A DNA stretch of 22,186 bases, taken from a virus. Within the stretch, counting starts at the first letter, position 1; every line of letters begins with the position of its first letter. Positions 1 to 15,800 of the stretch are shown here, one piece after another. The DNA lies in the IMG/VR virus record IMGVR_UViG_3300037054_000026, positions 1 to 22,186 of that record; one strand, written 5' to 3'. The position numbers and the translations under genes were made by a program. The notes beneath the pieces are model-generated. The model was not told the DNA's origin, did not search any database, and saw only the letters and a list, made by a program, of their open reading frames with translations.

Positions 1-309
1 GGCGACCTGATCACGCCGCTCACAGCACTGTTCTCCGGCTACATCGCCGGAACGGTCCTGACCGTTTCGCAGGCGAACCTAGGCCTGATCACCGAGGGGA
101 TGAGCCTCTACGGCCCGGGAGTTGCGGCCGGCACCGTCGTCGGCGCTCCGGGAAGCGGCGGCACCTTCGCCGTCTCGATCTCGCAGACGGTCGGATTGGC
201 AGGTTCGCCGGTCGCCATGAGCGCGGGAGATGTTTACCTCGTGGCGCAAGTGCTGGAGGCATGGCCGGATTGGACTAAGGTTGTCGCCACGCTTCAGAAC
301 GGAAGCTGA
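1..309 (+). CDS. C-terminal part of a phage head/connector-region protein with a promiscuous beta module (5' end cut)
   Basis: The reading frame is open from the first base and stops at TGA 307-309, so only the last 102 residues are present and the start lies upstream. Residues encoded by about 31-219 form one copy of a repeat module (FSGYIAGTVLTVS at its start, TFAVSISQTV near its end) that recurs in three other genes of this window. The last 30 or so residues (VYLVAQVLEAWPDW and a short tail) are outside the module and may be the true C-terminus of the host protein. Its place directly before the neck and sheath genes suggests a capsid-associated or head-tail connector protein, but I do not recognise the family from this fragment. 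An internal ATG at 100 lies inside the module and is unlikely to be a start. Confidence 0.75.
   Translation, partial: GDLITPLTALFSGYIAGTVLTVSQANLGLITEGMSLYGPGVAAGTVVGAPGSGGTFAVSISQTVGLAGSPVAMSAGDVYLVAQVLEAWPDWTKVVATLQNGS
31..219 (+). repeat. Promiscuous beta module, copy A (in the first partial gene)
   Basis: About 63 codons following the pattern F-(S/T)-G-x-I-x-G-T-x-L-T-V-S, then a G-x-G-V-A-A-G-T stretch and a Y/F-x-V-S-x-(S/A)-Q-T end. The 18 bases GCGGCCGGCACCGTCGTC at 124-141 are identical to 2156-2173 in the sheath gene, so this copy and sheath copy C2 are related at the DNA level as well as in protein pattern. Confidence 0.75.
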
Positions 310-384
310 ATCGTAGTTCTTGAGAAAATTCCGATTAGGTGTAAGCGTGCACCGACGTCGACTCTGTGAGAGAACCATCGCGCC

Positions 385-687
385 ATGCAGTTCAACGCTT
401 TCGGATCGAAGCCTCTCGGCTACCAGCAGATCACGTCGCTGTCGGCAGCCGAGAAACTTACCCCGCCGGCCGGCGCGTCGCTCGCGGTGATAAACCCGGA
501 GACGCAGGCGGTGCGCTGGCGCGACGACGGAACGGCGCCGACGGCGACCGTCGGGATGCTAATCGCGGTCGGCGACGAGTTCACCTACCAGGGCGACCTC
601 TCCGCCATCCAGATCATCGAGGTGACGGCGAGTGCGAAGCTCAACGTCAGCTACTACGCAGCCACCGGAGGCTTGCTGAAGCCGTGA
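385..687 (+). CDS. Small conserved phage structural-region protein (100 aa), function unknown
   Basis: A 100-residue protein starting at ATG 385 with a GAGAGA-like ribosome site upstream. It has a predicted mostly beta composition, with AVINPETQAVRWRDDGTAP in the first half and LNVSYYA near the end. I associate proteins of this size and pattern (a residue-rich AVRWRDDG core, then a DLSAIQ stretch) with the connector region of tailed phages, where they are usually annotated as hypothetical. The stop codon overlaps the next gene's GTG start (GTGA, 684-687), which argues for translational coupling with the neck protein. Function is not known; a small decoration or connector accessory protein is a guess from position. 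The longer out-of-frame reading at 366-687 is a shadow. Confidence 0.75.
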   Translation: MQFNAFGSKPLGYQQITSLSAAEKLTPPAGASLAVINPETQAVRWRDDGTAPTATVGMLIAVGDEFTYQGDLSAIQIIEVTASAKLNVSYYAATGGLLKP

Positions 688-1409
688 CCCTGTCGATCCT
701 CCCCACCGAAGACCAGGCGCTGACGGCGCTGACCACGTTCCTGACGGCGGTCATTCCCGACGGCTGTCCGGTCGTTCAGGGCCAGCCGAACCGCGTCCCG
801 GAGCCGAACGCGGCCAACTACGTCGTCATCACGCCGCGCAACCGCCCGCGCCTCTCGACCGACGGCGTGGCTTATGCGGACGCGGCGTTCACGGGCCACA
901 TCGCCGGGACGGCCATGACCGTGACCGCGGTCGCCTACGGCGAGCTTTCCGCCGGGCGCCCGGTGTTCGGGCCCAACGTCGCGGCGAACACCAAGATCGT
1001 CTCCGGCCTCGGCGGGGTCGGCGACTACGTGGTGTCGCCGTCTCAAACGGCCGCCGCCGGGCCGATGGCCGCGGGGGTCGTCGAGGTCTCGCAGCAGACA
1101 GAGTTCGTCGTGCAGATCGACGCCTACGGCCCGATCGGCGGCGACGTCGCGCAGACGATCACGACCATGCTCCGCTCGCTGTGGGGCGTCGACCAGTTCG
1201 CGGCGCAGGAGCCGAACTACGGCGTGGTCCCGCTTTTCGCCTCCGACCCGCAGCAGATGCCGTTCAGCGACGACCAGCAGCAGGTCGAGAACCGCTGGAT
1301 GCTCGAAGCTTACCTTCAGATCAACCCCGTCGTCACCGTGCCGCAGCAGTTCGCGGACGCGCTCGTCGTCGGGCTCGTCGACGTGGACGAACGATTCCCC
1401 GCATCATGA
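684..1409 (+). CDS. Phage neck / tail terminator-like protein (LIC_12616-like) with inserted beta module
   Basis: Start is GTG 684, overlapping the previous stop by 4 bases; the frame is open back to 366 but that extension is out-of-frame shadow of the preceding gene. The product is 241 residues. Conserved-looking parts are VVQGQPNRVPEP near residue 30, YVVITPRNRPRLST, QTEFVVQIDAYGP and a C-terminal NRWMLEAYLQINPVVTVPQ block, which I recognise as the LIC_12616 / gp12-like neck terminator family. Such proteins cap the tail tube and contact the head connector. Residues about 68-128 are a foreign repeat module placed between the RPRLST and QTEFVVQ blocks, which are normally close together, so the family fold is interrupted at a loop. 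Position just before the sheath gene fits this role. Family call is from remembered pattern, not a search. Confidence 0.72.
   Translation: MTLSILPTEDQALTALTTFLTAVIPDGCPVVQGQPNRVPEPNAANYVVITPRNRPRLSTDGVAYADAAFTGHIAGTAMTVTAVAYGELSAGRPVFGPNVAANTKIVSGLGGVGDYVVSPSQTAAAGPMAAGVVEVSQQTEFVVQIDAYGPIGGDVAQTITTMLRSLWGVDQFAAQEPNYGVVPLFASDPQQMPFSDDQQQVENRWMLEAYLQINPVVTVPQQFADALVVGLVDVDERFPAS
885..1067 (+). repeat. Promiscuous beta module, copy B (in the neck protein)
   Basis: About 61 codons starting AAFTGHIAGTAMTVTAVA and ending VVSPSQTAAAGPM. It keeps the FTG-x-I-x-GT-x-(M/L)-TV-x-AVA opening, the central V-A-A-N-T segment and the GGVGDYVVSPSQT end seen in the sheath copies (GGVGTYTVSVAQT). It interrupts the neck family between its RPRLST and QQTEFVVQ blocks. 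Confidence 0.75.
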
Positions 1410-1420
1410 GGAACTGACCA

Positions 1421-3571
1421 ATGACCATTCCCGCCTCCCAACTCGTCAGCGTAACTCCGCAAGTCCTCCCCGCGGGCGGCAACGCGCTCTCGATGACGGG
1501 CGTCGTCCTGACCGAGAACGCGCGGGTGACGATCGCCCGCCTCGGCTCCCTGACCCCGTTCCCGACGCTGCTCGCGGTGCAGAACTACTTCGGCGCCAAC
1601 TCGGACGAGGCGATCATCGCCGGGATTTATTTCAAGGGGTTCAACAACTCCAACGTCAAGCCGGCCTCCATCGGGTTCACGCAATATCCGGCCACGGCGG
1701 TGGCCGCTTATCTCCGCGGCGGCGCCTTCGGCCTCACGCTGGCGCAGATGCAGACGTTGAACGGGCCTCTCACCGTCGTGATGGACGGCTACAGCCACGT
1801 CATCAACACGATCAGTCTCGCGAGCTACAACAGCTTCTCGGCCGCGGCGGCGGCCATCCAGGCGGCGTTCAGCGACCCGACCGAGGCGAGCTTCACCGGG
1901 TCGATCGGCTCCGGATTCACGGCGTCGGGCAGCAGCACCAACTTGACGGTTTCCGCAGTCGCCACCGGGCGCATTTCGGTCGGCGACACAGTCACCGGCA
2001 TCGGGATTCCGGCGTCCACCACCATTCTGTCTCAGACCAGCAGCAGCGTCTCCGGGGCGAGCGTCACGGCTTCAATCGCCGGCGCGGTCATGAACGTGAC
2101 GGCCGTTGGATCTGGGGCTGTGGCGCCGGGACAACTGCTCACGGGGTCGGGCGTCGCGGCCGGCACCGTCGTCGTCAACCAACTTTCCGGAACGGCCGGC
2201 GGCGTCGGCACCTACACCGTCAGCGTTGCTCAGACGACGAGCTCCACCACGGTCACCTGCGGCACGCCAGGAGACGCCGGCGTTTACGTCACCAGCGCCG
2301 CCACCACGGCGAGCTCGGCGACCTGCGCCGGGCTTTCGACGGTCCTCGACGTCACGACCGACACCGACCACACGATCTCGGCCGGCCAGACCGTGGTCGG
2401 GGCGACCGTAGCGACCGGCACTTTGATCACGGCGCAGATCAGCGGCACGGTCGGCGGCACCGGCCTCTACCGCCTCAGCGGCGCGCAACAGACCATCGTT
2501 TCTGAGAGCATGACCGGAGTGGCGACCGCCCCGGCAGTGACCTACGATTCGCAGTCCGCCGCCTTCGTCGTCACGTCCGGCGACACCGGCGCGCAGTCGA
2601 CGGCGGCGTTCGCGACCGGAACGCTGGCGACGTCCCTCAAGCTGACCTCGGCGACGGGCGCGGTCCTGTCGCAGGGCGCCGACGCCACGACGCCGGCGGC
2701 CTTCATGGCGGCGGTGACCAACGGCTCGACGAACTGGGCCACGTTCATGACCGCCTTCGATCCGGACGGCGGCACCGGCAACGCGATCAAGCTTCAGTTC
2801 AGCGCATGGGTGAACACGACCCTGGAAGAATACGTCTACGCCTGTTGGGACCCCGACCTCGCGCCCGGCACCGTCGTGCCCGCGTCGTCGAGCCTCGGCT
2901 ACCTGCTCCAGCAGGGCGCCTACGACGGAACCGAACTCATCTCGTCGCCGGACTACAATCTCGCGGCGTTCTTCTGCGGCGCCACGGCGTCCATCGACTG
3001 GAACCAGCGCAACGGGCGCATCACCTACGCCTTCAAAGGCCAGGACGGCCTCGTGCCGAACGTCACCGACCCGACGACCGCCGCGAACCTCATCGCCAAC
3101 GGCTACAACTTCTACGGCGCCTACGCGACGGCCGCGCAGCAGTTCCTGGAATACCAGCCGGGCTCGATCTCGGGCGCGTGGCAATGGGCGAACACCTACG
3201 TCAACCAGATCTACTTCAACGCGCAGTTTCAGCTCGCGCTGATGCTGCTCCTGCAGCAGGTCCGGTCGGTGCCGTACAACGCGGAGGGCTACTCGACCAT
3301 CGCGCAGTCTATGCAGGACGTCATCGAGCAGGGCCTCAACTTCGGCGCATGGCGCAAGGGCGTTCCGCTGTCGTCGCTTCAGATCGCGGAGGTGAACAAC
3401 TCGGCCGGCGTCGATATCGCCGGCATCCTGTCGACGCAGGGATGGTATCTCCAGATCCTCCCGGCCACCGCGCAGGTCCGCCAGGCTCGCGGCTCGCCGC
3501 CGATGACCTTCTGGTACATGGACGGCGGCGACGTCCAGAAGATCAACCTCGCGAGCGTCGCGGTTCAATGA
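1421..3571 (+). CDS. Tail sheath protein, DUF3383 family, enlarged by three tandem beta modules
   Basis: Starts at ATG 1421 after an AGGA site; 716 residues. The N-terminus (MTIPASQLVSVTPQVLPAGG), the FPTLLAVQNYFGANSDE block and the C-terminal part (FMAAVTNGSTNWATFMTAFD, YVYACWDPD, GSPPMTFWYMDGGDVQKI) are characteristic of DUF3383 contractile tail sheaths, which polymerise around the tube and contract on infection. The family is normally near 500 residues. The excess is an insert at about residues 158-367 made of three copies of the module shared with the neck and baseplate genes, between the AAAIQAAFSDP segment and the VTYDSQSAAFVVTSGDTG segment, which are normally almost adjacent. If folded outward, each sheath subunit would carry about 200 residues of surface decoration. 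The following gene is the tube, as expected. Confidence 0.93.
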   Translation: MTIPASQLVSVTPQVLPAGGNALSMTGVVLTENARVTIARLGSLTPFPTLLAVQNYFGANSDEAIIAGIYFKGFNNSNVKPASIGFTQYPATAVAAYLRGGAFGLTLAQMQTLNGPLTVVMDGYSHVINTISLASYNSFSAAAAAIQAAFSDPTEASFTGSIGSGFTASGSSTNLTVSAVATGRISVGDTVTGIGIPASTTILSQTSSSVSGASVTASIAGAVMNVTAVGSGAVAPGQLLTGSGVAAGTVVVNQLSGTAGGVGTYTVSVAQTTSSTTVTCGTPGDAGVYVTSAATTASSATCAGLSTVLDVTTDTDHTISAGQTVVGATVATGTLITAQISGTVGGTGLYRLSGAQQTIVSESMTGVATAPAVTYDSQSAAFVVTSGDTGAQSTAAFATGTLATSLKLTSATGAVLSQGADATTPAAFMAAVTNGSTNWATFMTAFDPDGGTGNAIKLQFSAWVNTTLEEYVYACWDPDLAPGTVVPASSSLGYLLQQGAYDGTELISSPDYNLAAFFCGATASIDWNQRNGRITYAFKGQDGLVPNVTDPTTAANLIANGYNFYGAYATAAQQFLEYQPGSISGAWQWANTYVNQIYFNAQFQLALMLLLQQVRSVPYNAEGYSTIAQSMQDVIEQGLNFGAWRKGVPLSSLQIAEVNNSAGVDIAGILSTQGWYLQILPATAQVRQARGSPPMTFWYMDGGDVQKINLASVAVQ
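1892..2062 (+). repeat. Promiscuous beta module, copy C1 (sheath, first of three)
   Basis: Starts FTGSIGSGFTASGSS with an extra Gly/Ser-rich stretch, then NLTVSAVATGRISVGDTV and GIPASTTILSQ. It lacks the usual YTVS-x-x-QT ending and runs directly into copy C2, so it is probably truncated by unequal recombination. The 15 bases TTCACCGGGTCGATC at 1892-1906 are identical to 10765-10779 in the J-like baseplate gene. Confidence 0.7.
2069..2260 (+). repeat. Promiscuous beta module, copy C2 (sheath, second of three, most complete)
   Basis: Reads ASIAGAVMNVTAVGSG at the start, GSGVAAGTVVVNQLSGTAGG in the middle and GVGTYTVSVAQTTSSTTVT at the end. This is the best-preserved copy in the window and a good query for the module. 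It shares 18 identical bases with copy A (2156-2173 versus 124-141). Confidence 0.75.
2327..2521 (+). repeat. Promiscuous beta module, copy C3 (sheath, third of three, diverged)
   Basis: A diverged copy reading LSTVLDVTTDTDHTISAGQT, then VATGTLITAQISGTVGGTGL and a final YRLSGAQQTIVSESMTG. The opening is degraded, but the GTLITAQISGT-GG-TG-Y core and the Q(Q)T end keep the register of copy C2. Between C2 and C3 lies a short Thr/Ala/Cys linker. Confidence 0.65.
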
Positions 3572-3596
3572 TCGAAGGTAACGAAGGAAAAAAGCT

Positions 3597-4028
3597 ATGA
3601 CCGACCTCACTGCCGCCAACGCGATCGTCGCCCTCACGGCGCCGGGCGTCTTCAACACGCCGTTCACGCTTCAGGAATACGCGGCCGACGACATCTTTAG
3701 CTCGGCGCAGATCGAGGCCGGCGAAGGATCGATGGGCGTCGACGGCTACTACTCAGCCGGCTTCACCTTCAAGGAGGTCTCGCAGGAATACACGCTGCAG
3801 GGCAACTCTCCGTCCAACAAGTTCTTCGACGATCTCTACGAATACGAGAAGGCGAACCGCACCAAGGTGGCGCTCGGAGGCTCGACGACCATGCCGGGCC
3901 TCGGCATCAGATGGGTGACGACCCGCGGGTTCATGATCATGTACAACCCGATCGTGTCCGCCGGCAAAATCGTCAAGCCGCGGAAGTACGAGATCCGCTG
4001 GAACTCGTCGGCGCCGCAGCCGGCTTGA
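3597..4028 (+). CDS. Phage tail tube protein
   Basis: A 143-residue protein with ATG 3597 preceded by GAAGGA. Visible blocks are FTLQEYAADDIFSSAQIE, GVDGYYSAGFTFKEVSQEYT and SNKFFDDLYEYEKANRTK, followed by a beta-rich C-terminal half. Size, pattern (a VDG-x-x-SAGF segment followed by a region about pairs of strands and a FFDDLYEYEKAN helix) and position between the DUF3383 sheath and the tail assembly chaperone match the tail tube of this phage type, which forms the inner channel for DNA. The family is related in context to the DUF3277-type tube proteins; the exact family name is not certain. No repeat module is inserted here, consistent with a protein buried under the sheath. Confidence 0.78.
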   Translation: MTDLTAANAIVALTAPGVFNTPFTLQEYAADDIFSSAQIEAGEGSMGVDGYYSAGFTFKEVSQEYTLQGNSPSNKFFDDLYEYEKANRTKVALGGSTTMPGLGIRWVTTRGFMIMYNPIVSAGKIVKPRKYEIRWNSSAPQPA

Positions 4029-4064
4029 CCGCCCTCGCGCTGACCGCAGAACGCGAGGGACGGC

Positions 4065-4553
4065 ATGAGGAAAGTCAAAGAAGTCACCATCGCGGCCGAG
4101 GGCCGCGACAAGGGCAAGAAGTTCGTCCTCCGGGAGGGGGACGTGTTCACCGCAGAGTGGTGGTTCATCCGGGCGCTGCGCATCGCCGAGCGCGCCGGCG
4201 TCGACGTCCCGGGCGGCATCATGTCGGGGGCGAGCGGCGTCGCCGCCATCGGCATCATGACGGTCTTGAGCAGCGCCTCGGACCCCGAGGAGCTTCGCCC
4301 CCTGCTCTCCGAGATGCTGGCGGACGTCACGATCGTCACGGACGAGAAAACTCAACACACCCGCGGCCTCGTCACGGACGGCACGAACGACGACGTCGAG
4401 GAGATCAGCACACTTCTGACGCTCAGGCAGGAGTGGCTGACGATGCACCTAAATTTTTCCGTGGCCGACGCGATCTCGAAATTGATTCCGGTGAAACCGA
4501 CGTCGGCGGACTTGCGGAATACAAAAACCTCCCGGCATCCGTCGGAACGGTGA
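4065..4553 (+). CDS. Tail assembly chaperone, short zero-frame product (162 aa)
   Basis: This is the product when no frameshift occurs. The first 131 residues are shared with the long form: MRKVKEVTIAAEGRDKGKKF, then FTAEWWFIRALRIAERAG, a Gly/Ala stretch, an acidic helix (SDPEELRPLLSEMLADVT) and a C-terminal LRQEWLTMHLNF. The 31 residues after the slip site (starting SVADAISKLIPVK) are unique to this form and end in a basic, low-complexity tail. In the lambda system the short form is far more abundant than the fusion and both are needed at a set ratio, without being part of the virion; the same is inferred here. Confidence 0.78.
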   Translation: MRKVKEVTIAAEGRDKGKKFVLREGDVFTAEWWFIRALRIAERAGVDVPGGIMSGASGVAAIGIMTVLSSASDPEELRPLLSEMLADVTIVTDEKTQHTRGLVTDGTNDDVEEISTLLTLRQEWLTMHLNFSVADAISKLIPVKPTSADLRNTKTSRHPSER

Positions 4554-4690
4554 TCTCGAGCCGGATGGCGACGCTGGTCGAATGCCAGAGTGTGCTCGGC
4601 ATCGAAGACGTCTATGATATTATCGAGGTGCTGGCCGTGGACGCGCACAATCGGCGCGTTCTGGCAGAACGCAGCAAGCGGGAGAATTGA
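4065..4690 (+). CDS. Tail assembly chaperone, full-length product made by -1 ribosomal frameshift (208 aa)
   Basis: The zero frame opens at ATG 4065 (site GAGGGA at 4055-4060) and alone would give 162 residues ending at TGA 4551-4553. At 4451-4457 the heptamer A AAT TTT is in register for simultaneous -1 slippage; slippage there joins codon 131 to the -1 frame, which runs to TGA 4688-4690 and adds 77 residues (FRGRRDLEIDSGETDV onward, with GIEDVYDIIEVLAVDAHNRR near the end). A 7-bp stem begins 6 bases after the heptamer. Long-tailed phages commonly make their tape-measure chaperone as a short form and a frameshifted long form (the lambda G/GT arrangement), and this gene sits exactly between tube and tape measure. 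The extension contains an ATG at 4565, so separate initiation cannot be excluded, but the signal makes frameshifting the simpler reading. Confidence 0.82.
4451..4507 (+). other. -1 programmed ribosomal frameshift signal
   Basis: Slippery heptamer AAATTTT at 4451-4457 is read A AAT TTT in the chaperone frame, giving Asn and Phe tRNAs that can re-pair one base back. After a 6-base spacer (4458-4463), GCCGACG at 4464-4470 is the exact reverse complement of CGTCGGC at 4501-4507, forming a 7-bp GC-rich stem; inside the loop CGGT 4489-4492 can pair with ACCG 4496-4499. A Shine-Dalgarno-like AGGAG lies upstream at 4429-4433, a little further away than in the best-known bacterial stimulators. Direction and register lead exactly into the -1 extension frame. 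Confidence 0.8.
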
Positions 4691-4695
4691 AAGTG
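4680..4695 (+). promoter_or_regulatory. Ribosome binding site deciding the tape measure start (GTG 4693)
   Basis: GGGAG at 4680-4684 sits 8 bases before GTG 4693 but only 2 bases before the in-frame TTG 4687. The spacing favours GTG 4693. The start lies 2 bases after the chaperone stop at 4690, so the genes are probably translationally coupled. Confidence 0.6.
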
Positions 4696-6759
4696 CCGAC
4701 GATCGTCGATTCCCTCGTCGTCGAGCTTGAGCTGGACCCGTCCAAGTTCGAGTCCGGACGCCGGCAGGCCGACGACGCGTTCGACAAAACCAAACTCAAG
4801 GCGGCGAAGGTCGGCGAGGAGATCGAGGGGCAGACCAAGAAGCTCGCGGAGGGCTTCGGGGCGGTCAAGACGAATGTCCTCGGGCTGTTTGCGGCCTTCA
4901 CTGGCGTTGGCATTGCCGCGTTCACGTCGCAAATGCTGCACGCAGATGCCGCGACCGGCCGCGCGGCCAAGAACTTCGGTATGGCGACGAATGAGCTTGG
5001 CGCATGGCAGGGGGCGGTAAAAATTGCTGGCGGATCGGCGGAGGACGCAACCGCCGCTATCGGTGGCCTGACCCAAGCACTTGAAACTGCGAAGGTGACG
5101 GGCGACCCGTCCGGATTGCTGAAATGGGCGCAGTGGGCGCAAATCGACATCCGGGGAATGAACGGCGAACTCAAGACCGCGACCGAACTCTACCTCGAGC
5201 TTGCCGATAAAATGAAGGCCATGAGTGACGCCGGCAATTCGGCGGGGGCGTTCACATTGGCGAATGCACTCGGCGTTCCGGCCGGCATGATTCCGATGTT
5301 GATGCAGGGGCGGCAATACTCCGAAGCTTTGCTCGCTAACATGCGGGAAGTCGGCGCGGTAACGAAGGAGCAGTCTGCACAGGCAATCAAATACGAAAAT
5401 GCCTGGGTCCGGGCCTGGATCAGAATCCAGGCCGCTGTACGCGAGTTTTATCCGATACTGACGGACCTCGGGAACGCCCTCACGCTGGCATTCAGCCCGA
5501 AGGCCCTTGCGGTTTATGCGCAGGGACTCAAATCCATCGTGGCTGACTTCAAAGTGGCCCAAAGTTGGATTTCCTTTGATAAGGCATCCGTGACACGCGC
5601 GGCTATCGCTGATGCTGACATCCAGCGGGCCAAGTGGGCGGCCATGCAAAAGGATTTGGACGACTGGAAAGCAGGAGAAGGCGGCAAGAAATACACCGGC
5701 GCCGACCTCGACAAGTTCATGGGACAGGCCGGCGCAGACAAACCGCAAGACAAACCGCCGCTGCCGCGCACCTTGCAGGGATACGGGGCACCGACGGCAC
5801 CGGGAGAGGTCATCGACGAAAGCGAGACGTCCGGCCTACGCGGCACCGGGCGCAAGATGAACAAGGTCGAGGGCATGATCGTCCACCACACCGGCGGCGG
5901 AGGCGACACGGCTGGCGTCGTGAACACGCTGAATCAGCGCGGGCTCTCGGTCCAGTTCGTCGTCGATCGGGAAGGAAAGACCCATCAGATCCTTCCGGAA
6001 GGCACCGAAGCCTCGCACATGCGAACCGGGTGGGGTGCGAAGGGCGACGGCAAAAGCAACAGCAACATGCAGGGTGTCGAGGTTATCGCCCGCAACGACA
6101 AGGACGTCACCGACGCGCAGAAGGCGGCCGTCGCGGCGCTCGTCGCTCGACAGGCGACGAAGTACGGCTACGACCCGAAGACCTCGGTGTTCGGTCACGG
6201 AGAGGTCAACCCGGGCCACAAGGAAGCCGACGAAGGCATGTCGTCTGTCGACATCATAAGGTCGGGGAAATACGCCGGGTCTCCGCCGAAGGTCGACGAG
6301 AAGAAACAGGAGGCCTACGGCGCCTTGAAGGCGTTTGGCGAGAAGTTGATCGCGGAACAACAACGCACTGCCGCCGCGCCGGTTTCAACCCCGCCGCCGG
6401 CTTCGGCCAATTCTCCTGCCCTGCCTTCGGCTCCTGTTTCTACGACGGCGTCAGCTTCACCACCGCTTTCGCCCGCGCCCGCTCCGACCGAGGCCGACGA
6501 TAAGCAGCAAGCCTTCGCCGACATGCTGCGCGGGCTCGGGAAGAAGCGAATGGAGAACGTGCAGCCCGGCGCCGCGGTCGCCGCCGCAGCCTCTAACGTC
6601 GACAACAGCCGGTCGAGCACGTCCACCACCGAGGTCAACATCGGGACGGTCCAGGTCAACGCGCCGCAGGCCAAAGACGCGGCCGGGGTCGGCAAGGGGA
6701 TCGGAGGCGCGATCAAATCTAACCTCTACACGCCGCAAGCCGACGGAGGGCCGCACTGA
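4693..6759 (+). CDS. Tail tape measure protein with internal N-acetylmuramoyl-L-alanine amidase domain
   Basis: A 688-residue protein in the tape-measure position. Residues 1-310 are helical and begin with a LVVELELDPSKFESGRRQAD segment typical of tape measure N-termini, with a hydrophobic stretch near 58-75. Residues about 392-530 look like an Amidase_2/PGRP zinc amidase: IVHHTGGGGDTAG carries H398/H399, and FGHGEVNPGHKEADEG carries H502 and D513, matching the H...H...(C/D) zinc pattern. A Pro/Ala/Ser-rich linker (about 555-600) leads to a short C-terminal domain. Known role: sets tail length and is ejected into the cell envelope; the inferred role of the amidase is local cutting of peptidoglycan during DNA entry. 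GC falls between about 4890 and 5660 and rises again at the amidase, suggesting mosaic origin. At under 700 residues it implies a short tail. Confidence 0.85.
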   Translation: MPTIVDSLVVELELDPSKFESGRRQADDAFDKTKLKAAKVGEEIEGQTKKLAEGFGAVKTNVLGLFAAFTGVGIAAFTSQMLHADAATGRAAKNFGMATNELGAWQGAVKIAGGSAEDATAAIGGLTQALETAKVTGDPSGLLKWAQWAQIDIRGMNGELKTATELYLELADKMKAMSDAGNSAGAFTLANALGVPAGMIPMLMQGRQYSEALLANMREVGAVTKEQSAQAIKYENAWVRAWIRIQAAVREFYPILTDLGNALTLAFSPKALAVYAQGLKSIVADFKVAQSWISFDKASVTRAAIADADIQRAKWAAMQKDLDDWKAGEGGKKYTGADLDKFMGQAGADKPQDKPPLPRTLQGYGAPTAPGEVIDESETSGLRGTGRKMNKVEGMIVHHTGGGGDTAGVVNTLNQRGLSVQFVVDREGKTHQILPEGTEASHMRTGWGAKGDGKSNSNMQGVEVIARNDKDVTDAQKAAVAALVARQATKYGYDPKTSVFGHGEVNPGHKEADEGMSSVDIIRSGKYAGSPPKVDEKKQEAYGALKAFGEKLIAEQQRTAAAPVSTPPPASANSPALPSAPVSTTASASPPLSPAPAPTEADDKQQAFADMLRGLGKKRMENVQPGAAVAAAASNVDNSRSSTSTTEVNIGTVQVNAPQAKDAAGVGKGIGGAIKSNLYTPQADGGPH

Positions 6760-7325
6760 TGAGCTTCCTCGACTCGGTCTTGACGGCGGACGGCCTCGGA
6801 ATCTTCGGGTTCGACCAGCAATCGCAATGGGGGATATTCGCCGACGGCGCGCAGATCGTCCAGGCCGAGACCGTCCACGCGTTCAACTTCAAGCAGGACT
6901 GGCCGATCTCGACTTACCAGACGGAAGAAGGCGGGTTCCAAAGCTTCAACAAGGTCGAGCTGCCGTTCGAGCCGATGGTCGAGTTCATGACCGGCGGCGG
7001 AGACGACGCGAAGCAGGCGCTTCTCGACTCCATCGCCGCGATCGCCGGAGACCTGAACCTCTACGACGTAGTCACCCCGACGGCGACCTACACGTCGTGC
7101 AACGTCACGCATTACGACTACGACCGAAAAAACGCGCGCGGCGTCGGGCTGCTGAAGGTGATGGTGCACCTCATGGAGGTTCGGGTGAACGCGACGACGC
7201 AGTACGGGACCGCGACGCCGATCACGAACTCGAAGGACCCCGGATCCAACTCGCAGCAGCACAACGGGACCGCGCAGACGAGCGACGCGCCGGCGACGTT
7301 CAACGACAGATTCTTCTTCAACTGA
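6759..7325 (+). CDS. Dit-like baseplate protein
   Basis: A 188-residue protein whose ATG 6759 overlaps the tape measure stop by one base, with a strong GGAGGG site at 6746-6751. It has a beta-rich N-terminal region (GIFADGAQIVQAETVHAF), then FKQDWPISTYQTEEGGFQSF and a conserved-looking MVEFMTGGG segment, and a Ser/Asn/Gln-rich C-terminal tail from about residue 150. Position directly after the tape measure and the N-terminal pattern fit the Dit-like N-terminal domain of simple myovirus baseplates, which links the tail tube to the baseplate hub. It also has an IFGFDQQ motif that reappears twice in the DUF2612 wedge. Family assignment is from context plus remembered pattern. Confidence 0.65.
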   Translation: MSFLDSVLTADGLGIFGFDQQSQWGIFADGAQIVQAETVHAFNFKQDWPISTYQTEEGGFQSFNKVELPFEPMVEFMTGGGDDAKQALLDSIAAIAGDLNLYDVVTPTATYTSCNVTHYDYDRKNARGVGLLKVMVHLMEVRVNATTQYGTATPITNSKDPGSNSQQHNGTAQTSDAPATFNDRFFFN

Positions 7326-7338
7326 CGACCGGACCGCC

Positions 7339-7647
7339 ATGCAGATCGTGCCGCTCACCGCGAACCCTAACCAGACGCTGACGGTCGGCCTCAACAACCA
7401 GGCTTGCCAGATATCCGTCTATCAGACGGCGGACGCGCTTTTCCTCGACCTCTACGTCAACGACGCGCTGATCATCGCCGGGGTTATTTGCGAGAACCTG
7501 AACCGGATCGTGCGCGACCTCTATCTCGGCTTCCAGGGCGACCTCGGCTTCGTCGACACGCAGGGCGATTCGGACCCGAACTACACGGGGCTCGGCTCGC
7601 GGTTCCAGTTGGTCTACCTGACGCCGGCCGAGGCGGGAGATACCTGA
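7339..7647 (+). CDS. Baseplate plug protein (Pam3 gp18-like)
   Basis: A 102-residue protein. The pattern MQIVPLTANPNQTLTVGLNN, then a short strand series (CQISVYQTADALFLDLYVND), a NLNRIVRDLYLGFQGDLGFV block and a final GLGSRFQLVYLTP matches the small baseplate plug family described for cyanophage Pam3 (gp18). In that structure the plug closes the central channel of the baseplate before infection. No strong ribosome site is visible; the gene begins 13 bases after the previous stop and ends directly against the hub start, so coupled translation is likely. Confidence 0.75.
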   Translation: MQIVPLTANPNQTLTVGLNNQACQISVYQTADALFLDLYVNDALIIAGVICENLNRIVRDLYLGFQGDLGFVDTQGDSDPNYTGLGSRFQLVYLTPAEAGDT

Positions 7648-8532
7648 ATGTCGTTCGTACAGCGGAAGCTAAAATCGACGTTCGTGCTCGGCACCGGCAA
7701 CTTTGGCCTGCAGGGGCAGAACCAGCTCGAGCTGTCGGGCCTCCGGACCACGTCCGACGTGATCTACGCCGGCGGCCTCGGCGTCGGAACGCTCGACCTG
7801 GCCATCTACGGCATGACGCTTTCCCACATGAACCAGCTTTCGACGCTCGGGATGGTCTACTCGGAAGTTCGCCGCAACAGCATCACGCTGGATGCCGGAG
7901 ACGACAAGAACGGCATGGCCACGGTGTTTCAAGGGATAATTTTGAATGCTTGGCCCGACATGAATGCAATGCCGAACGTACCGTTCCGCATCACCGCGAT
8001 GGCTCAGTTGCTGACTGCGGTCGCGCCGTCTTCGGTTGTAAACGTAAAGGGCAGCGCCGACGCGGCAACTTTGCTGGCCGGGCTTGCTCTTAAAATGAAC
8101 CCTCCATGCAGGTTTGAAAACAACGGCGTCAGCGTGAAGCTGCAAAACCCGTACTACGACGGAAGCGCATTTAATCAAGCGCAACAGATCGTGCGTCACG
8201 CCGGGATCGAGTGGAATAGTTGCGAGAAAGGTATTCTGGCGATCTGGAAGCCTGGGCAAACGCGCGGCGGAACGACCATCATACTTTCAAAAGACACCGG
8301 AATGGTCGGTTACCCGACGGCGACCTCCAACGGATTATCGGTGCGAACTATTTGGAATCCATCGATCTCTTTAGGAACGAGGATTCAAGTTAAGACCACC
8401 TTGAAGCTGGCGGCAGGTTCCGGCGAGTTCTCAGTCTACAAAATTGACCATCATCTCGACGCTTATACACCTAACGGTCGATGGTTCTCCGACATCCAAA
8501 GCACGCCACCGGCACTGATGCAGACGCCATGA
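7648..8532 (+). CDS. Baseplate hub protein
   Basis: A 294-residue protein starting at ATG 7648 with GGGAG upstream, immediately after the plug stop. It lies between plug and spike, the place of the hub (T4 gp27/Mu gp44-like fold) in this baseplate type. Visible blocks include MSFVQRKLKSTFVLG, LSGLRTTSDVIYAGG, LDLAIYGMTLSHMNQLSTLG and a C-terminal SGEFSVYKIDHHLDAYTPNG, the last being a common hub ending with a YKI-x-H-x-LD motif. Known role: trimeric hub connecting tail tube and spike. From about 7920 to 8500 the DNA is clearly poorer in GC and uses A/T third positions much more than the first 270 bases, which points to a recombination junction inside the gene. Confidence 0.72.
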   Translation: MSFVQRKLKSTFVLGTGNFGLQGQNQLELSGLRTTSDVIYAGGLGVGTLDLAIYGMTLSHMNQLSTLGMVYSEVRRNSITLDAGDDKNGMATVFQGIILNAWPDMNAMPNVPFRITAMAQLLTAVAPSSVVNVKGSADAATLLAGLALKMNPPCRFENNGVSVKLQNPYYDGSAFNQAQQIVRHAGIEWNSCEKGILAIWKPGQTRGGTTIILSKDTGMVGYPTATSNGLSVRTIWNPSISLGTRIQVKTTLKLAAGSGEFSVYKIDHHLDAYTPNGRWFSDIQSTPPALMQTP

Positions 8533-9224
8533 CAGACACCACGGAACCAACGGGCCAAGGCTACCCGAGGCAAGCGGGACCGAGCGACGATGCGACCGAT
8601 TTCTCGCAGCGTAATTTCCAGATTTGGCAGGCGCTTTCCCGCGTGCGCACGGCGGTCGTCGTCAAGATCATGGGGGTCGACGGCACCAACGACACGCTCG
8701 CGCCCGTCGGAACCGTCGATGCGATGCCGCTGGTCAAGCAGATGGACGGGGCCGGGAAGTGCTTCTCTCACGGGACGATCTTCAGCCTGTCCTACGTGCG
8801 CATGCAGGGCGGCACCAACGCGATCATTTGCGACCCGAAGGTCGGCGACCTCGGCCTGGCCGTGATCTGCGACCGCGACATCTCGTCGGTCAAGGCGAAC
8901 AAGGGCGAGGCGAACCCCGGATCGCGTCGGAAGTTCAGCCTCTCGGACGGCGTCTACATCGGCGGGATGCTCAACGGGATGCCGGAGCAGTACGTGTTCT
9001 TCACGCCGACCGGCATGAAGCTCGCCGACAAGAACGGCAACGTGATAGAGATGAAGGTAGGATCCATCGACGTCACGACGGCGGCGTTTAGGGTCAACGG
9101 CGCGATCATCGCGGGCTTTGGAACGGCCGATCAGGTCGGACTGCAAACTCACATTCACGCGCAAGGGACCGATAGCCACGGCGACACTGAAGTGCCGACC
9201 AACCTACCGACGGCGGGAACATAA
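8529..9224 (+). CDS. Gp138-family membrane-puncturing spike protein
   Basis: Start ATG 8529 overlaps the hub stop (ATGA); the open frame upstream to 8481 is shadow. The product is 231 residues. An OB-fold N-terminal domain is indicated by VRTAVVVKIMG, LAPVGTVDAMPLVKQMDG, THG-like SHGTIFSLSYVRMQGG and NAIICDPKVGDLGLAVICD, then DISSVKANKGEANPGSRR and DGVYIGGMLNGMPEQYV, all typical of the phi92 Gp138 family. The C-terminal part is a short beta region ending with THIHAQGTDSHGDTEVPT. H208 and H210 form an H-x-H pair like the iron-binding tip of P2/phi92 spikes, and H217 is nearby. The trimer would form the needle that pierces the outer membrane. The beta-helical shaft is short compared with longer relatives. 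Confidence 0.82.
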   Translation: MTDTTEPTGQGYPRQAGPSDDATDFSQRNFQIWQALSRVRTAVVVKIMGVDGTNDTLAPVGTVDAMPLVKQMDGAGKCFSHGTIFSLSYVRMQGGTNAIICDPKVGDLGLAVICDRDISSVKANKGEANPGSRRKFSLSDGVYIGGMLNGMPEQYVFFTPTGMKLADKNGNVIEMKVGSIDVTTAAFRVNGAIIAGFGTADQVGLQTHIHAQGTDSHGDTEVPTNLPTAGT

Positions 9225-9608
9225 ATGAACACGCTTCTGCTCGATCGTGCGACATGGGATTTAATGACCAATGCGGCCGGCAACATCGCCACCGCATTCG
9301 ATTCCGCGCCGGTGTCGACGGCGGCTCAAAAGACCGTCTACGCGCTGGCGCAAGACGCCGCCAGCGCCATCAGGCTGTTTCAAACGGAGCTTTGGTTCGA
9401 CACCACGCAGGGCATCCCGTACTTCGATCATATCCTCGGAAAAAAGCCGTCCGTTCCGCTGATGAAGGCGTACTTCGTGAGGGCCGCGAAGACGGTCCCC
9501 GGCGTCGTTTCGGCGGTGTGCTACATAGAGGCGATCGCGAATCGCGTCGTGACCGGACAGGTGCAGGTCTTCGACGCAAAAGGCAACTCGGCAACGGCGG
9601 CGTTCTGA
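9225..9608 (+). CDS. Baseplate sheath initiator / gp25-like protein
   Basis: A 127-residue protein whose ATG directly follows the spike stop. Blocks TLLLDRATWDLMTNAAGNIA, AQDAASAIRLFQTELWFDTT, GIPYFDHILGKKPSVPLMKA and a C-terminal TVPGVVSAVCYI region match the small gp25-like proteins of simple myovirus baseplates (an aligned-codon pattern with SAIR-F-x-x-E-x-W-(F/Y)-D-T-x-x-G-(I/V)-P-Y). Known role: nucleates sheath assembly on the baseplate. It lies between spike and J-like wedge, exactly as expected. No inserted module is present. Confidence 0.7.
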   Translation: MNTLLLDRATWDLMTNAAGNIATAFDSAPVSTAAQKTVYALAQDAASAIRLFQTELWFDTTQGIPYFDHILGKKPSVPLMKAYFVRAAKTVPGVVSAVCYIEAIANRVVTGQVQVFDAKGNSATAAF

Positions 9609-9609
9609 C

Positions 9610-11037
9610 ATGACAGCGGTCCCGTCGGTAACTTTCGGCCCCAACGGCGTCATCATCCCGAGCACCCAAGCGGTGCTTCAGGGTGTCATCGCCGACTTCC
9701 AGGCGGCCTTCAACAACACACTGAACCTATCGTTGAGCAACCCGTCATCGCTCGCGACGCCGCAAGGCCAGCTCGCGACCAGCATGGCGGCGGCGATCAA
9801 CGCCGCGAATCAGACGTTCCTTCTCCAATCGACGCAGACCGACCCCGCTTATGCGTTCGGCCGTTGGCAGGACGCAATCGCGCGGATTTATTTCATCTAC
9901 CGGATCGGTTCGCAGCCGACCGTCCTGCAAATCGTGTGCAACGGTTCCGCCACGCCGATCCCGATCGGGTCCACGATCCAGGATGAAGACGGCAACATCT
10001 ACACGGCGACCGCGGCCGGGACGCTCCCGGTCGGCGGCGGGTCGATTACGTTGCCTTTCGCAAACAACATCCCGGGGCCGATCGCAGTTCCGGCCACCAA
10101 CGCGGTCACGATCTATTTGGCTATCCCGGGATGGGATTCGGTCTCGGTTGCGTCCGGGGTGCTCGGCTCGAACACGGAATCGAGATCAGCGTTTGAAACC
10201 CGGCGCGCCGCGACGGTCGCCGGAAACAGCTTCGGGGCCATCGGATCGATCATCGGCGCGGTCGCCAAGGTCCCCGGGGTCACCGACCATTGGGGTTACG
10301 ACAACGACAAGTCGACGGCGACGACGATCATGGGCGTCACGGTCGCGCCCAACTCGATCTACATCGCGGTCGCCGGCGGCGCGCCGATCGACGTCGCCCA
10401 GGCCATCCTGTCGAAGAAGTCTCCCGGCAGTCCATACACCGGGAACACGACGGTCACGGCTTACGACAACAACCCGCTGTACTCCGCGCCGGTCCCCTAT
10501 GAGGTGACGTTCGAAATTCCGGCCCCGCTTCAGATATTGTTCGTCGTCAACATCACGAACGGCGCGCTCGTGCCGTCGAACGCCACCGCGCTCATCCAGG
10601 CCGCGATCATCAACGCATTCGCCGGAGCCGACGGAGGTCCGCGGGCGCGCATCGGATCGACGATCTACGCGAGCCGCTTCTACGCCGCCGTCGCGGCGCT
10701 CGGAGCGTGGGCGAGCATCATCGACATCTTCATCGGCAGCAACAACAACGCCGCCGCGGCGTCTTTCACCGGGTCGATCTCCGGAACGAACTTGTCCGTC
10801 AGCGCGGTGGCGTCCGGCTCGTTGGCGATCGGGCAGACGATCTCCGACGCGACCGGGAACATCGCGGTCGGCACTCGGATATTGTCCGGCAGCGGCGCGT
10901 CTTGGACCGTGAGCGTGGCGCAGGCCGTGTCGAGCGAAGCGATGCAGGCCTGCGTGGCAAATCAAAACACCGTCGTCGTCAACGCCAACCAACTCCCGGA
11001 GATATCCGGGAACAACATCCTCGTGAACCTCGTATGA
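9610..11037 (+). CDS. Baseplate J-like wedge protein with inserted beta module near the C-terminus
   Basis: A 475-residue protein starting at ATG 9610. The core is baseplate J: a helical N-terminal region (STQAVLQGVIADFQAAFNN, LATPQGQLATSMAAAINAAN), the QDAIARIYFIYR segment, a central beta domain (IPIGSTIQDEDGNIYTA), the EFETRR-like SAFETRRAATVAGNS helix and GAVAKVPGVTDHWGYDN. Near the C-terminus, residues about 385-445 are one copy of the repeat module, placed between WASIIDIFIGS and the terminal TVVVNANQLPEISGNNILV, which are normally nearly joined in the family. J-like proteins form the wedge ring that links hub to sheath. Its stop overlaps the next start (ATGA 11034-11037). Confidence 0.88.
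   Translation: MTAVPSVTFGPNGVIIPSTQAVLQGVIADFQAAFNNTLNLSLSNPSSLATPQGQLATSMAAAINAANQTFLLQSTQTDPAYAFGRWQDAIARIYFIYRIGSQPTVLQIVCNGSATPIPIGSTIQDEDGNIYTATAAGTLPVGGGSITLPFANNIPGPIAVPATNAVTIYLAIPGWDSVSVASGVLGSNTESRSAFETRRAATVAGNSFGAIGSIIGAVAKVPGVTDHWGYDNDKSTATTIMGVTVAPNSIYIAVAGGAPIDVAQAILSKKSPGSPYTGNTTVTAYDNNPLYSAPVPYEVTFEIPAPLQILFVVNITNGALVPSNATALIQAAIINAFAGADGGPRARIGSTIYASRFYAAVAALGAWASIIDIFIGSNNNAAAASFTGSISGTNLSVSAVASGSLAIGQTISDATGNIAVGTRILSGSGASWTVSVAQAVSSEAMQACVANQNTVVVNANQLPEISGNNILVNLV
10762..10947 (+). repeat. Promiscuous beta module, copy D (in the J-like wedge)
   Basis: Reads SFTGSISGTNLSVSAVASG at its start, then SLAIGQTISDATGNIAVGT and a closing GASWTVSVAQAVSSEAMQA. It has an eroded central part but keeps the opening and the VSVAQ end. 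The 15 bases at 10765-10779 are identical to the start of sheath copy C1 (1892-1906). It is preceded by an Asn/Ala linker, which looks like a junction. Confidence 0.75.
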
Positions 11038-11816: not shown

Positions 11817-12809
11817 ATGCAAGCATCCGGTATTCCTACCAAGTTCGCCAATCCGTTCGCCGTGTCGGCTGCTGGAGGCTACACCAGGGAGGTCCCGAAC
11901 ACGACGGCGGACGCCAACGCGGCATCGCTGACGCTCGGCTTTCCCCCGAACACATTCCTGCCGATCGGCGCCGGCGGTGCTCCTCCCGACGGGCGCGACT
12001 TCAACGGGCTGCTCAATCAGATCACCGCGTGGAACCAGTGGCAGCAGGCCGGCGGTACCGTCGGGTATGATGCGGCGTTCTCTGCGGAGATCGGCGGCTA
12101 TCCGCTAGGGGCCGTTATCTCGGCAGCGACGATTGGAAACTTCTGGATCAGCGCTGTCGACAACAACGTCACGGACCCGGACACTGGAGGGGGCGGATGG
12201 TTTGGGTTTTATGTGATCAACACTGCTCCTAGCGTTCTCATGACGCCGGGCGCTGGCAACTACACGACGATAAGCGCGAACTTCCTCGTCGAGGGATGGT
12301 CGGCCGGCGGCGGCGCCGGGGGCAGCGACACAAACAACATCGGATCGGGGGGCACTGCAGGAACCTACGGGCGAAAACTATACACCGGCATGACGGTCGG
12401 AGCGGTGATCCCTTACGTGATCGGTGCCGGAGGTGCATTCGGAACGGCCGGCGGCGGGAACGGCACCGTCGGTGGGAATACTACGTTCGGGACCGTCGGC
12501 GTTGGATTGATGACACTATTCGGAGGTCCCGGGAATCTTGGAAACAGCGGACAACGTGGAGTGCGGGCGGCGAACCCGACAGGGTGCGATTTTTATATCC
12601 TCGGTCAGAACGGTGCGGCCGGCATCTTGGCTACGGCGAGCTTCGGCGGCGTCGGCGGTTCGGCACCGCTCGGCGGCGGCGGCGGCCAAGGATCATCCGG
12701 CGGTGCCGGCGAAGTCGGAATCATTCCGGGCGGTGGCGGTTCTGGCGGAGCGCAGCTTAATGTCGGCGGGCCGGGCGCCGGCGGCGGACTAATCATAACT
12801 CCGCAATGA
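11817..12809 (+). CDS. Tail fibre/adhesin with glycine-rich C-terminal domain
   Basis: A 330-residue protein with a GAGGGG site at 11803-11808. The N-terminal domain (residues 1-150: MQASGIPTKFANPFAVSAAG, then LTLGFPPNTFLPIGAGGAPP, DGRDFNGLLNQITAWNQWQQ and GGYPLGAVI) is a known tail-fibre attachment module found in many proteobacterial phages. From about residue 158 the sequence becomes glycine-rich (GWSAGGGAGGSD, VIGAGGAFGTAGGGNG, PLGGGGGQGSSGGAGE, GGGGSGG) in the manner of Gly_rich receptor-binding domains, in which polyglycine helices or loops pack into a compact tip whose exposed loops contact the receptor. Position after the wedge genes supports a receptor-binding role. The stop overlaps the next gene's start (ATGA). 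Confidence 0.8.
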   Translation: MQASGIPTKFANPFAVSAAGGYTREVPNTTADANAASLTLGFPPNTFLPIGAGGAPPDGRDFNGLLNQITAWNQWQQAGGTVGYDAAFSAEIGGYPLGAVISAATIGNFWISAVDNNVTDPDTGGGGWFGFYVINTAPSVLMTPGAGNYTTISANFLVEGWSAGGGAGGSDTNNIGSGGTAGTYGRKLYTGMTVGAVIPYVIGAGGAFGTAGGGNGTVGGNTTFGTVGVGLMTLFGGPGNLGNSGQRGVRAANPTGCDFYILGQNGAAGILATASFGGVGGSAPLGGGGGQGSSGGAGEVGIIPGGGGSGGAQLNVGGPGAGGGLIITPQ

Positions 12810-15800
12810 GAATCAACATGAAAAAACACATTTTAGCATTGTTCCTCGCCGCGGCGGCGGCGGCGTTCGCAAGTTCGTTCGCTCACGCTCAGTCCGGATG
12901 TCCCGCCATCGTGAACGGAGCAGTGTTGACTGCAGGGCAATGGAACGCGTGTTTTTCCGCAAAAAACAACACTCTCGGTTACATCCCGCTGAACACTGGC
13001 GGCGGCACGATGACCGGGCCGCTGAAGACGGCGGCATCGATCACGGCGGGGGCGGGACTGAACATCGTTCCCGGAATCGCTCCGACGTCGCCAAACAACG
13101 GCGATATGTGGACGACAGCGAGCGGACTATATGCCCGCGTCGGCGGCATCACGATTGGGCCGCTATCCGGAGGGTCGTCCTCTAGCTTTTCCGCGACATC
13201 GCCGATCCTCGTAACCTTCCCGTCCGGCATCGTAACCTACGCATTCGACTTCACTGTCGCCAACGCCTTCCTGGCGCAACAGACCAACCAGGGCGCGACG
13301 ACGACCTCCCCTGGCTGGTACGCGCGGATCGCCGGTGACACGGTTCCGCGGGTCCGGGTCGGCCTCAACGCTACTGATATCGCCAGCGTCTCGTTTGGCC
13401 CCGGCAACGCGGCGCGCGACGCCTTCCTCGAGCGCGTCGGAGCGGGAGCGTTGCGCTTCGGCGCGCCCGACGCGGCCTCCGCGGTCGCTCAGACGCTAAG
13501 CGTCCAGAACGTCGTCGCCGGCACCAGCAACACGGCCGGCGCCGTCACCACGTTCGCGGCGTCGCAGGGCACCGGCACCGGTCTCGGCGGCCCGTTCCTG
13601 TTCAAGACGGCTCCCGCCGGCAGCACCGGAACGACGCAGAACGCGCTTGTTACCGCGATGGAGATTTACGGTAGCGGCGGCGTGACCATCGGGGCGCCGA
13701 CCGGCGCAGATCAGGGCGCCGGATTTCTGAACGTCGCCGGCGGCTACAAGGTCAACGGCGCATCGGTCGGCCCGATCACCGGCGGCGCGAACGGCCAAAC
13801 GCTTCAGGGCGTCACGTCGGCCGCTCCGCTCTGGACCTCGGCTCTCAACCTTGGCGTCTCCGGCACCGCGGGAAGTGCGACGTTCGGCAACGCGACCTCC
13901 GGCACCGTCACCGTCCAACCAGTGACCGGCGCGCTCGGCTCGGTCACGGCCAGCTTGCCAGCCAACACCGGAACCATCGCGGAAACGAACTACGCTCAAT
14001 CGTGGACCGCCACGCAGACGCTGCAGACGATCCTGGCCGGAACGACGAACACCTACGACGTCGGCACCAGCGCCACGGTCGCGGCGTTCCGCACGATCTA
14101 CGCCGGAACGTCTTTCGTAGGCCCGCTCGGTCAGTTCACGACCGCCGCCGCGACGCCAGTCTTGCGTCCGATCTCCGACGGCACGACCGCACTTCAAGTC
14201 ACGAAGGCGGACGGCACCACGCGCATCATGGACTTCGACACGACCAACGCGCGGGTCGGCATTAACAAGACGCCTGGCGCCTTCGATCTCGACGTGAACG
14301 GTGCGGTGAACTTCGGGAGCACGGTAAACGCCGTCACCGGCTATCAGATCGGGGGAGCCGCCACGGCCGCCAATGTTCTGCGCGGCAACGGGACGAATTT
14401 CGTCAGCGCGATTCTCGCCGCGGCCGATCTAAGCAACGGCGTCTCCGGCTCAGGCGCGGTATGCCTCGTCACGTCTTGCGTCATGGTGACGCCAACGCTC
14501 GGCGTCGCGGCCGGCACGTCTCTCGCGGTCGGTGGCGGGTCCATCGGCTCCGACGCGCTGGAGGTGACGGGCTCGACGACCCACAACGGCGCGGTGGTGG
14601 TGAACGCGGCCAGCTTCGGCCTTTCGGGGAACCAGGCCGTCGCGGCGTGGACCACGAGCGGCGTCCGCTACAAGAACGTCGCCGCCACTCTGACAGACAC
14701 GACTTCGACCGGAACGGTTGCGACCGCTTACACCGATCGATGGGGCGGCAGCACGGTCGCCGCGTCGAACGCCGGCGTTACTTTCACAAATTATTTCGGC
14801 TCTTATTTCAACGACGCGGCGGCCGGAACCAACGTCACGCTGACGAACAAGTGGGCCGTCGGCGCCGACAGCATAAAGGTCGGAACGAGTAATCAGTTCT
14901 CGGTCGGAAACGCCGGCCACGTCACCGCCGAGGGAGTGACATCTACCGGCGCGACCGGCACCGGCAAATTCGTGTTCGACGGATCGCCGTCAATCGGAAG
15001 TCTGACGGTCACGACCGCGTTCACGGCGACCGGACTCGTAACGGTTGGGGACTTGGCCCCGCAGGCCGCAAATACTTTCCTTGCGAACGTAACTGGCGGC
15101 TCGGCTTCTCCTACGGCGGCGGCCATTCCTACTTGCACGGGGGCAGCATCGGCCCTGCAATATAGTGGCGGTCTTTCGTGCGGCACGATCACGGCGGCGG
15201 CCTCGTCTATCGCATACGGCACGACGACCGCCGGCACGGCCGTTGGCATCCCGTACAACACGACAAACGGCGGAACCATTTCGGCGCTGACGCCGGTCAG
15301 CGGCGGCGTGCTGTATGGTGCCAGCGCGACCACCCCGGCGTTCTCGGCGGCGCTCACGCAATACGGCCCGGTGTACGGCGGCGGTGCTGGCAGCGCTCCC
15401 GTCTCGATGGCGGCTGGAACGGATGGTCAGATCATAGTTGGGCAGACCGGAGCGGCTCCACTGTGGAAAACATCGGCCGGTGACGTATTATCAATCTCGA
15501 CGGTTGGCGGCTTCATCTTTTCGTCGGTTAACACTCACCTTACGCAGTTGGCAAACTTGACCAATGTCGGTTCGCTCGCTGTTGGGAACATTGTGTCCGG
15601 CTTCGGCACAATTCTGACTACCAACACGATTGGCACAGCCGCAGACACGATAACGTCGGCATCTGCTAATGCGCTCGCAGTCGGGCGACAAGGCGCGACG
15701 CAGCCCGCGTTCAACGTGGACGCTTCGACCGCCTCGCAGACTGCGGGCCTGAACGTCAAGGGCGCGGCTTTCAACGGGACGGTCGCGCTCGCCGTCATCG

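Follow-up and report, generated by a model that had tools for sequence, protein, structure and literature searches.

Similar segments of about 60 residues recur in several structural genes of one phage, which raises the question of whether they are copies of a single inserted domain, how that domain came to lie in so many parts of one particle, and what it might do there. The window, that is, the whole stretch of DNA analyzed here (22,186 bases, the entire IMG/VR record), has the gene order of an E217/Pam3-like myophage with a contractile tail and is probably a fragment of a phage genome. A sequence-only reading of it had proposed six copies or partial copies of one beta-rich module in at least four virion genes, spread by copying between genes as a self-copying decoration system.

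Module copies and their carrier genes

A profile HMM, seeded with the copies in the window and refined by iteration over 80 viral loci, found exactly six copies of a module of ~60 residues in four ORFs of the window (E 9e-27 to 3e-11), and a second, independent profile of 61 rows returned the same six. The proposed copies are therefore all statistically strong in two agreeing searches, and neither profile found a seventh in the 22,186 bases; one search with the seeded HMM gave a single sub-threshold fragment between copies 4 and 5. Identity among the window copies is 29-48%. The genes and copies are as follows.

1..309, + strand: collar-like head protein gene, 3' part (phrog_1912), cut by the contig start; holds module copy 1
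31..195, + strand: module copy 1, E 1.2e-15, at the hairpin turn of the collar-like protein
Between the collar-like gene and the neck terminator: 100-aa ORF
684..1409, + strand: neck terminator, 241 aa (PF23961, phrog_1876); residues 66 and 127 flank module copy 2
888..1061, + strand: module copy 2, E 1.8e-22, in the neck terminator, predicted separate domain
1421..3571, + strand: tail sheath, 716 aa (DUF3383 PF11863, phrog_205), with a three-module insert of ~235 residues at residues ~150-385
1916..2044, + strand: module copy 3, E 3.3e-11, in the sheath, truncated (profile positions 2-44 of 65)
2060..2254, + strand: module copy 4, E 9.4e-27, in the sheath, the most typical copy
2315..2512, + strand: module copy 5, E 2.1e-13, in the sheath, divergent
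3597-4028: tube
4687-6759: tape measure with amidase domain
7339-7647: baseplate plug (PF22479)
7648-8532: hub
After the hub: spike-like protein
9225-9608: baseplate wedge
9610..11037, + strand: baseplate wedge, 475 aa (phrog_6), with module copy 6 near the C-terminus
10762..10944, + strand: module copy 6, E 1.8e-16, in the wedge, between AAS-x-T and P-x-x-x-A-x-N-I-x-V-x-L of insertless relatives
Downstream of the wedges: DUF2612 protein, fibers, endolysin-like protein

The four carriers (ORFs 1-309, which is cut by the contig end, 684-1409, 1421-3571, and 9610-11037) bear out the earlier count of genes. The copy that had been placed at 1892-2062 is real but not full length: it is truncated, and a stub of a further module start, common to relatives, lies 5' of it at about 1886-1906. 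Many independent contigs show the same arrangement, which rules out an assembly artifact.

Both profile and fold place the neck terminator in PF23961 (70.8 bits against a cut-off of 27) and the sheath in DUF3383 (PF11863; E 1.6e-108, above the curated cut-off), and the 475-aa wedge belongs to phrog_6 by profile match (E 2.2e-48). For ORF 1-309, the phrog_1912 match (E 3e-5) falls on the last ~30 residues, the rest lying beyond the contig end; module-bearing relatives match this family over ~80 residues and, via relatives, there is a weak link (E 0.003) to the E217 gp28 collar protein.

Elsewhere in the window, the tape-measure-like protein (4687-6759) has an N-acetylmuramoyl-L-alanine amidase domain (PF01510) at residues 392-510. 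A fiber-like ORF of 1263 aa without family matches (12806-16597) starts with an apparent Sec signal peptide (MKKHILALFLAAAAAAFASSFAHAQ), which is odd, virion proteins being assembled in the cytoplasm. Beside the fiber genes, the N-terminus of ORF 16613-17638 is Tat-like (TRRKILIGASTLVAAPF), and the ORF has a pectate-lyase-like match (PF12708).

Insertion sites and fold

The module had been described as lying between family blocks that are normally near each other, and clean empty sites were found in insertless relatives of the terminator, sheath, and wedge. In many such relatives of the terminator, about 2-10 residues separate the positions equivalent to residues 66 and 127. Residues 150 and 386 of the sheath are joined by a short linker in relatives of ~490 aa, which include cultured phages of Aeromonas, Klebsiella, Acinetobacter, Xanthomonas, and Pseudomonas, and the same site holds 0, 1, 2, or 3 modules among relatives. 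In the wedge, the module sits between AASxTVxI and NRxPxxxAxxIxVxL of insertless proteins. The collar-like site reads GDLIT-PL[module]SAGD-VYLVAQ in the window against GDLVT-LPDGS-VWLVTQ in L043; here the matching flank before the module is only about five residues long and corresponds to one arm of a hairpin that turns at LPDGS in the relative.

Relatives of the wedge have three distinct insertion sites, and those of the terminator and the collar-like protein have two each, which argues for repeated insertion during the history of these families. The terminator site would accept other cartridges as well, since in one relative (L061:9385-10167) it is occupied by another kind of beta module, duplicated and about 137 residues long, for which no PHROGs or Pfam match was found.

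AlphaFold models of two carriers are in line with these junctions. In the terminator model (pLDDT 94), residues about 64-132 are predicted to fold into a small beta domain of their own, borne on a hairpin, and the core matches the solved neck proteins of Sf14, Pa193, and E217 at Z 14-16. Of the sheath model, 448 residues align at Z 33 to the sheaths of E217 and Pa193, which are about 500 aa long and without insert. The sheath model is weak in two places, the first module, where pLDDT is about 50, and the linker that leads to copy 5. The E217 sheath lattice is built by an N-terminal arm, a C-terminal beta-turn, and a C-terminal arm (PMC10329688), and by this comparison the insert would lie away from all three.

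These results bear directly on the possibility that the segments are native core of each family and alike only through composition, all of them being Gly/Ser/Thr/Val-rich beta segments. The sequence-only reading had itself named an integral place in the core fold as the finding that would undo it. Because the predicted terminator and sheath cores are whole without the module, the segments do not appear integral to them; together with profile E values down to 9e-27 and the clean empty sites, this makes likeness through composition scarcely credible, and it is ruled out for the terminator, sheath, and wedge, the collar-like gene lying only partly within the window. Profile matches and insertless relatives both support the insertion of a single homologous module into four proteins of the virion.

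What the module is can be said in part from its fold. No Pfam family was found for it with 61 module rows, no PDB chain was related to the 61-row profile by sequence, and in PHROGs it is contained in just two larger profiles, phrog_21413 and phrog_38233. The best fold match of terminator residues 64-132 is 8eci_1 (Z 7.3, 2.0 A, 62 residues, 24% identity), a 124-residue chain in a phage Bridgette capsid entry, aligned over its residues 7-76; EF-Tu barrel domains come next (Z 5.9). That the predicted module shares its fold with 8eci_1 is held with moderate confidence, Z being below 8, and a search of PDB chains with the 61-row profile did not return this chain at E up to 10. Ig-like and FN3 profiles gave only Big_6 at E 0.22 in one of the 61 rows, and Ig-like, catalytic, and glycosidase readings of the module have no profile support. 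A viral structure library returned putative single-domain matches in other phage proteins (fibers, lyase-like, and capsid-annotated).

In our judgment the module is quite probably a promiscuous accessory domain of the virion. It would be a compact beta domain of ~60 residues with its N and C termini side by side and, because these adjoin, could be plugged into a beta-hairpin or loop while the host fold stays unbroken. Its carriers in this phage are the neck terminator, the baseplate wedge, the collar-like protein, and, with three in tandem, the sheath.

Spread and movement of the copies

The set surveyed comprises 72 dereplicated contig groups; most loci are only 5-20 kb, and the set is biased, having been fetched by module, sheath, and wedge queries. 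Cement proteins (PF22758/PF23982) carry 83 copies, sheaths 45, wedges 33, and terminators 19, and further copies are found in collar-like, plug (PF22479), fiber, and other proteins. The module occurs in three or more genes in 13 of the 72 groups; a total of 12 copies falls in six ORFs of a single record (those for cement, collar-like, terminator, sheath, and wedge proteins and one more), and a second record has 11. The plug of one relative (L138, 16661-17437) has the module, whereas the window's plug (PF22479, 7339-7647) does not. This distribution suggests one interchangeable part used across the outside of the virus.

Sheath relatives in bacterial genomes (Achromobacter, Bordetella) are without modules, and an Acetobacteraceae assembly has one, in the terminator. 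Whole-genome searches of two bacterial classes gave matches in 4 of about 754 genomes, so the module seems rare in bacterial chromosomes. A tblastn search of GenBank phages with single copies and a consensus gave no match whatever the cut-off, a null that does not show absence from cultured phages, as the low-complexity filter probably masks the query. With the terminator as query, tblastn on viral contigs returned no relatives; those used here came from loci fetched with other queries.

As to how the copies spread, the nearest neighbor of 141 of 199 copies compared lies at the same gene in another phage, and that of only 3 lies in another gene of the same genome. In the window, the terminator, the wedge, and two of the three sheath copies are likewise closest to same-gene copies in other phages. 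Cross-gene identity within genomes (199 copies) is 0.413 against 0.401 when permuted, a value reached by 29 of 500 permutations. Judged from these sequence relationships, most copies appear to be inherited in place, and would descend from ancestral insertions.

A different account, the one favored earlier, is that of a self-copying decoration module whose copies spread by recombination between virion genes of the same genome and homogenize one another. It had been argued from short exact DNA matches between copies. Both matches exist, one of 19 bases (124-142/2156-2174) and one of 15 bases (1892-1906/10765-10779), and both exceed a codon-resampling null (P 0.0085 and 0.0025), but they do not prove copying: four further exact direct repeats, 16-17 bases long and unconnected with the module pairs, occur in the window, and across genomes the DNA excess over the codon null is near nominal, with no clear excess. 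We therefore regard the window's matches as marginal, near the codon and repeat background.

Firmer signs of exchange come from relatives. In L161, the sheath and the wedge share a collinear two-module cassette (61% identity over 186 aa; at the DNA level, 68% over 435 bases, E 1e-41), and in nine genomes cement copies resemble the sheath copies of their own genome more closely than those of other genomes (0.570 vs 0.533, permutation P 0.005). Other gene pairs, however, show no same-genome excess of identity, and no mobility gene or target-site duplication was seen that would warrant the term self-copying. With window copies that are only 29-48% identical and mostly nearest to the same gene elsewhere, recombinational copying between the genes of this genome did not hold up, and we consider a self-copying module unlikely. 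Gene-to-gene transfer appears supported only in some relatives (the L161 cassette and the cement/sheath pairs). For an accessory domain mostly inherited in place, new sites and cassettes would then arise through occasional recombination between genes or between phages, as seen in relatives and not in this window.

Module-specific exchange between L161 and L162, suggested by low synonymous divergence of their sheath modules, was rejected, the low-divergence stretch covering most of the gene. The two sheath genes (L161:1757-3934 and L162:381-2558) are near-identical mostly and strongly diverged over the last ~100 codons, and this step is possibly a recombination boundary at the sheath C-terminus.

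Possible role and comparison with known systems

Charged residues make up 3.0% of the modules compared with 11% of the rest of the carriers; Ser/Thr account for 31% and Gly for 19%, and 33 of the 199 modules are without any charged residue. The hairpins and loops that receive the module are probably exposed on the particle. The most likely role would be display, with outward-facing, nearly uncharged Ser/Thr/Gly-rich knobs presented in high copy number. The E217 tail has 204 sheath subunits (PMC10329688), and at three modules per subunit, a comparable tail would carry several hundred. Such knobs may provide weak multivalent attachment to surfaces or glycans, reinforce the particle, or both; to adhesion or reinforcement as the actual role we give a little less than an even chance.

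The domain might instead persist without benefit, as a neutral or selfish hitch-hiker tolerated at hairpins. Many relatives that lack the insert are evidently viable (in GenBank, phages of Acinetobacter, Xanthomonas, Aeromonas, and Klebsiella), and some copies, such as copy 3, are truncated. However, dN in the modules is mostly 0.1-0.3 of dS in diverged pairs, comparable to the carrier cores, and the module copies are under purifying selection; moreover, the frames stay open, and the sheath site retains one to three copies across widely diverged relatives. A hitch-hiker without benefit is for these reasons quite improbable.

We put forward, only tentatively, a more far-reaching version of the accessory domain, an exchangeable coat domain that spans the whole particle: docking hairpins would be offered by six or more proteins of the virion (cement, collar-like, terminator, sheath, wedge, and plug), hundreds of copies would extend from head to baseplate, and cassettes of one to three modules would move between genes and phages, serving as a multivalent adhesin or armor. 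If this is right, the head, neck, tail, and baseplate of one particle carry the same part, and phages own a second, unnamed equivalent of the Ig-like domain, more systematically used. Five or six conserved virion proteins offer defined insertion sites with natural empty controls, so deletion experiments could probe the function of such an accessory domain. With a Pfam-type model for the module, misleading family boundaries such as those of phrog_21413 and phrog_38233 would also be mended.

Those two PHROGs, of unknown function and annotated as tail fiber protein, respectively, already hold the module in larger profiles (60 and 54 of the 61 module rows match) but are whole-protein families that neither define the domain nor record its spread through the particle. 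The DUF3383 sheath, PF23961 terminator, phrog_6 wedge, and PF22758 cement of E217/Pam3-like myophages are the module's host proteins, and in the GenBank phages and solved structures compared they lack it. Arthrobacter phage Bridgette has dimeric capsid cement proteins (PMC13033339), of which 8eci chain 1 is likely to be one; it resembles the module in predicted fold but is a separate small protein without sequence-profile relation. The open-access literature searched gave no account of this module or of one domain in so many particle parts, which is weak evidence of novelty.

The closest parallel is that of the Ig-like domains, which are known from five classes of structural protein in phages (PMC9022992, reviewing Fraser et al. 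2006) and are thought to help adhesion or adsorption (PMC9022992). Like the module, these domains (Big_1/Big_2, I-set, FN3) are small beta domains added to or inserted in several classes of virion protein, with variation from relative to relative. They are, however, roughly 80-100 residues long, whereas the module has about 60 and matches no Ig-like Pfam model. It also occurs in up to six genes and 12 copies in a single genome, and the proteins that take it up as an insert include sheath, terminator, collar-like, wedge, and cement proteins. The module appears to behave like the phage Ig-like domains but, by sequence profile, to be a different family.
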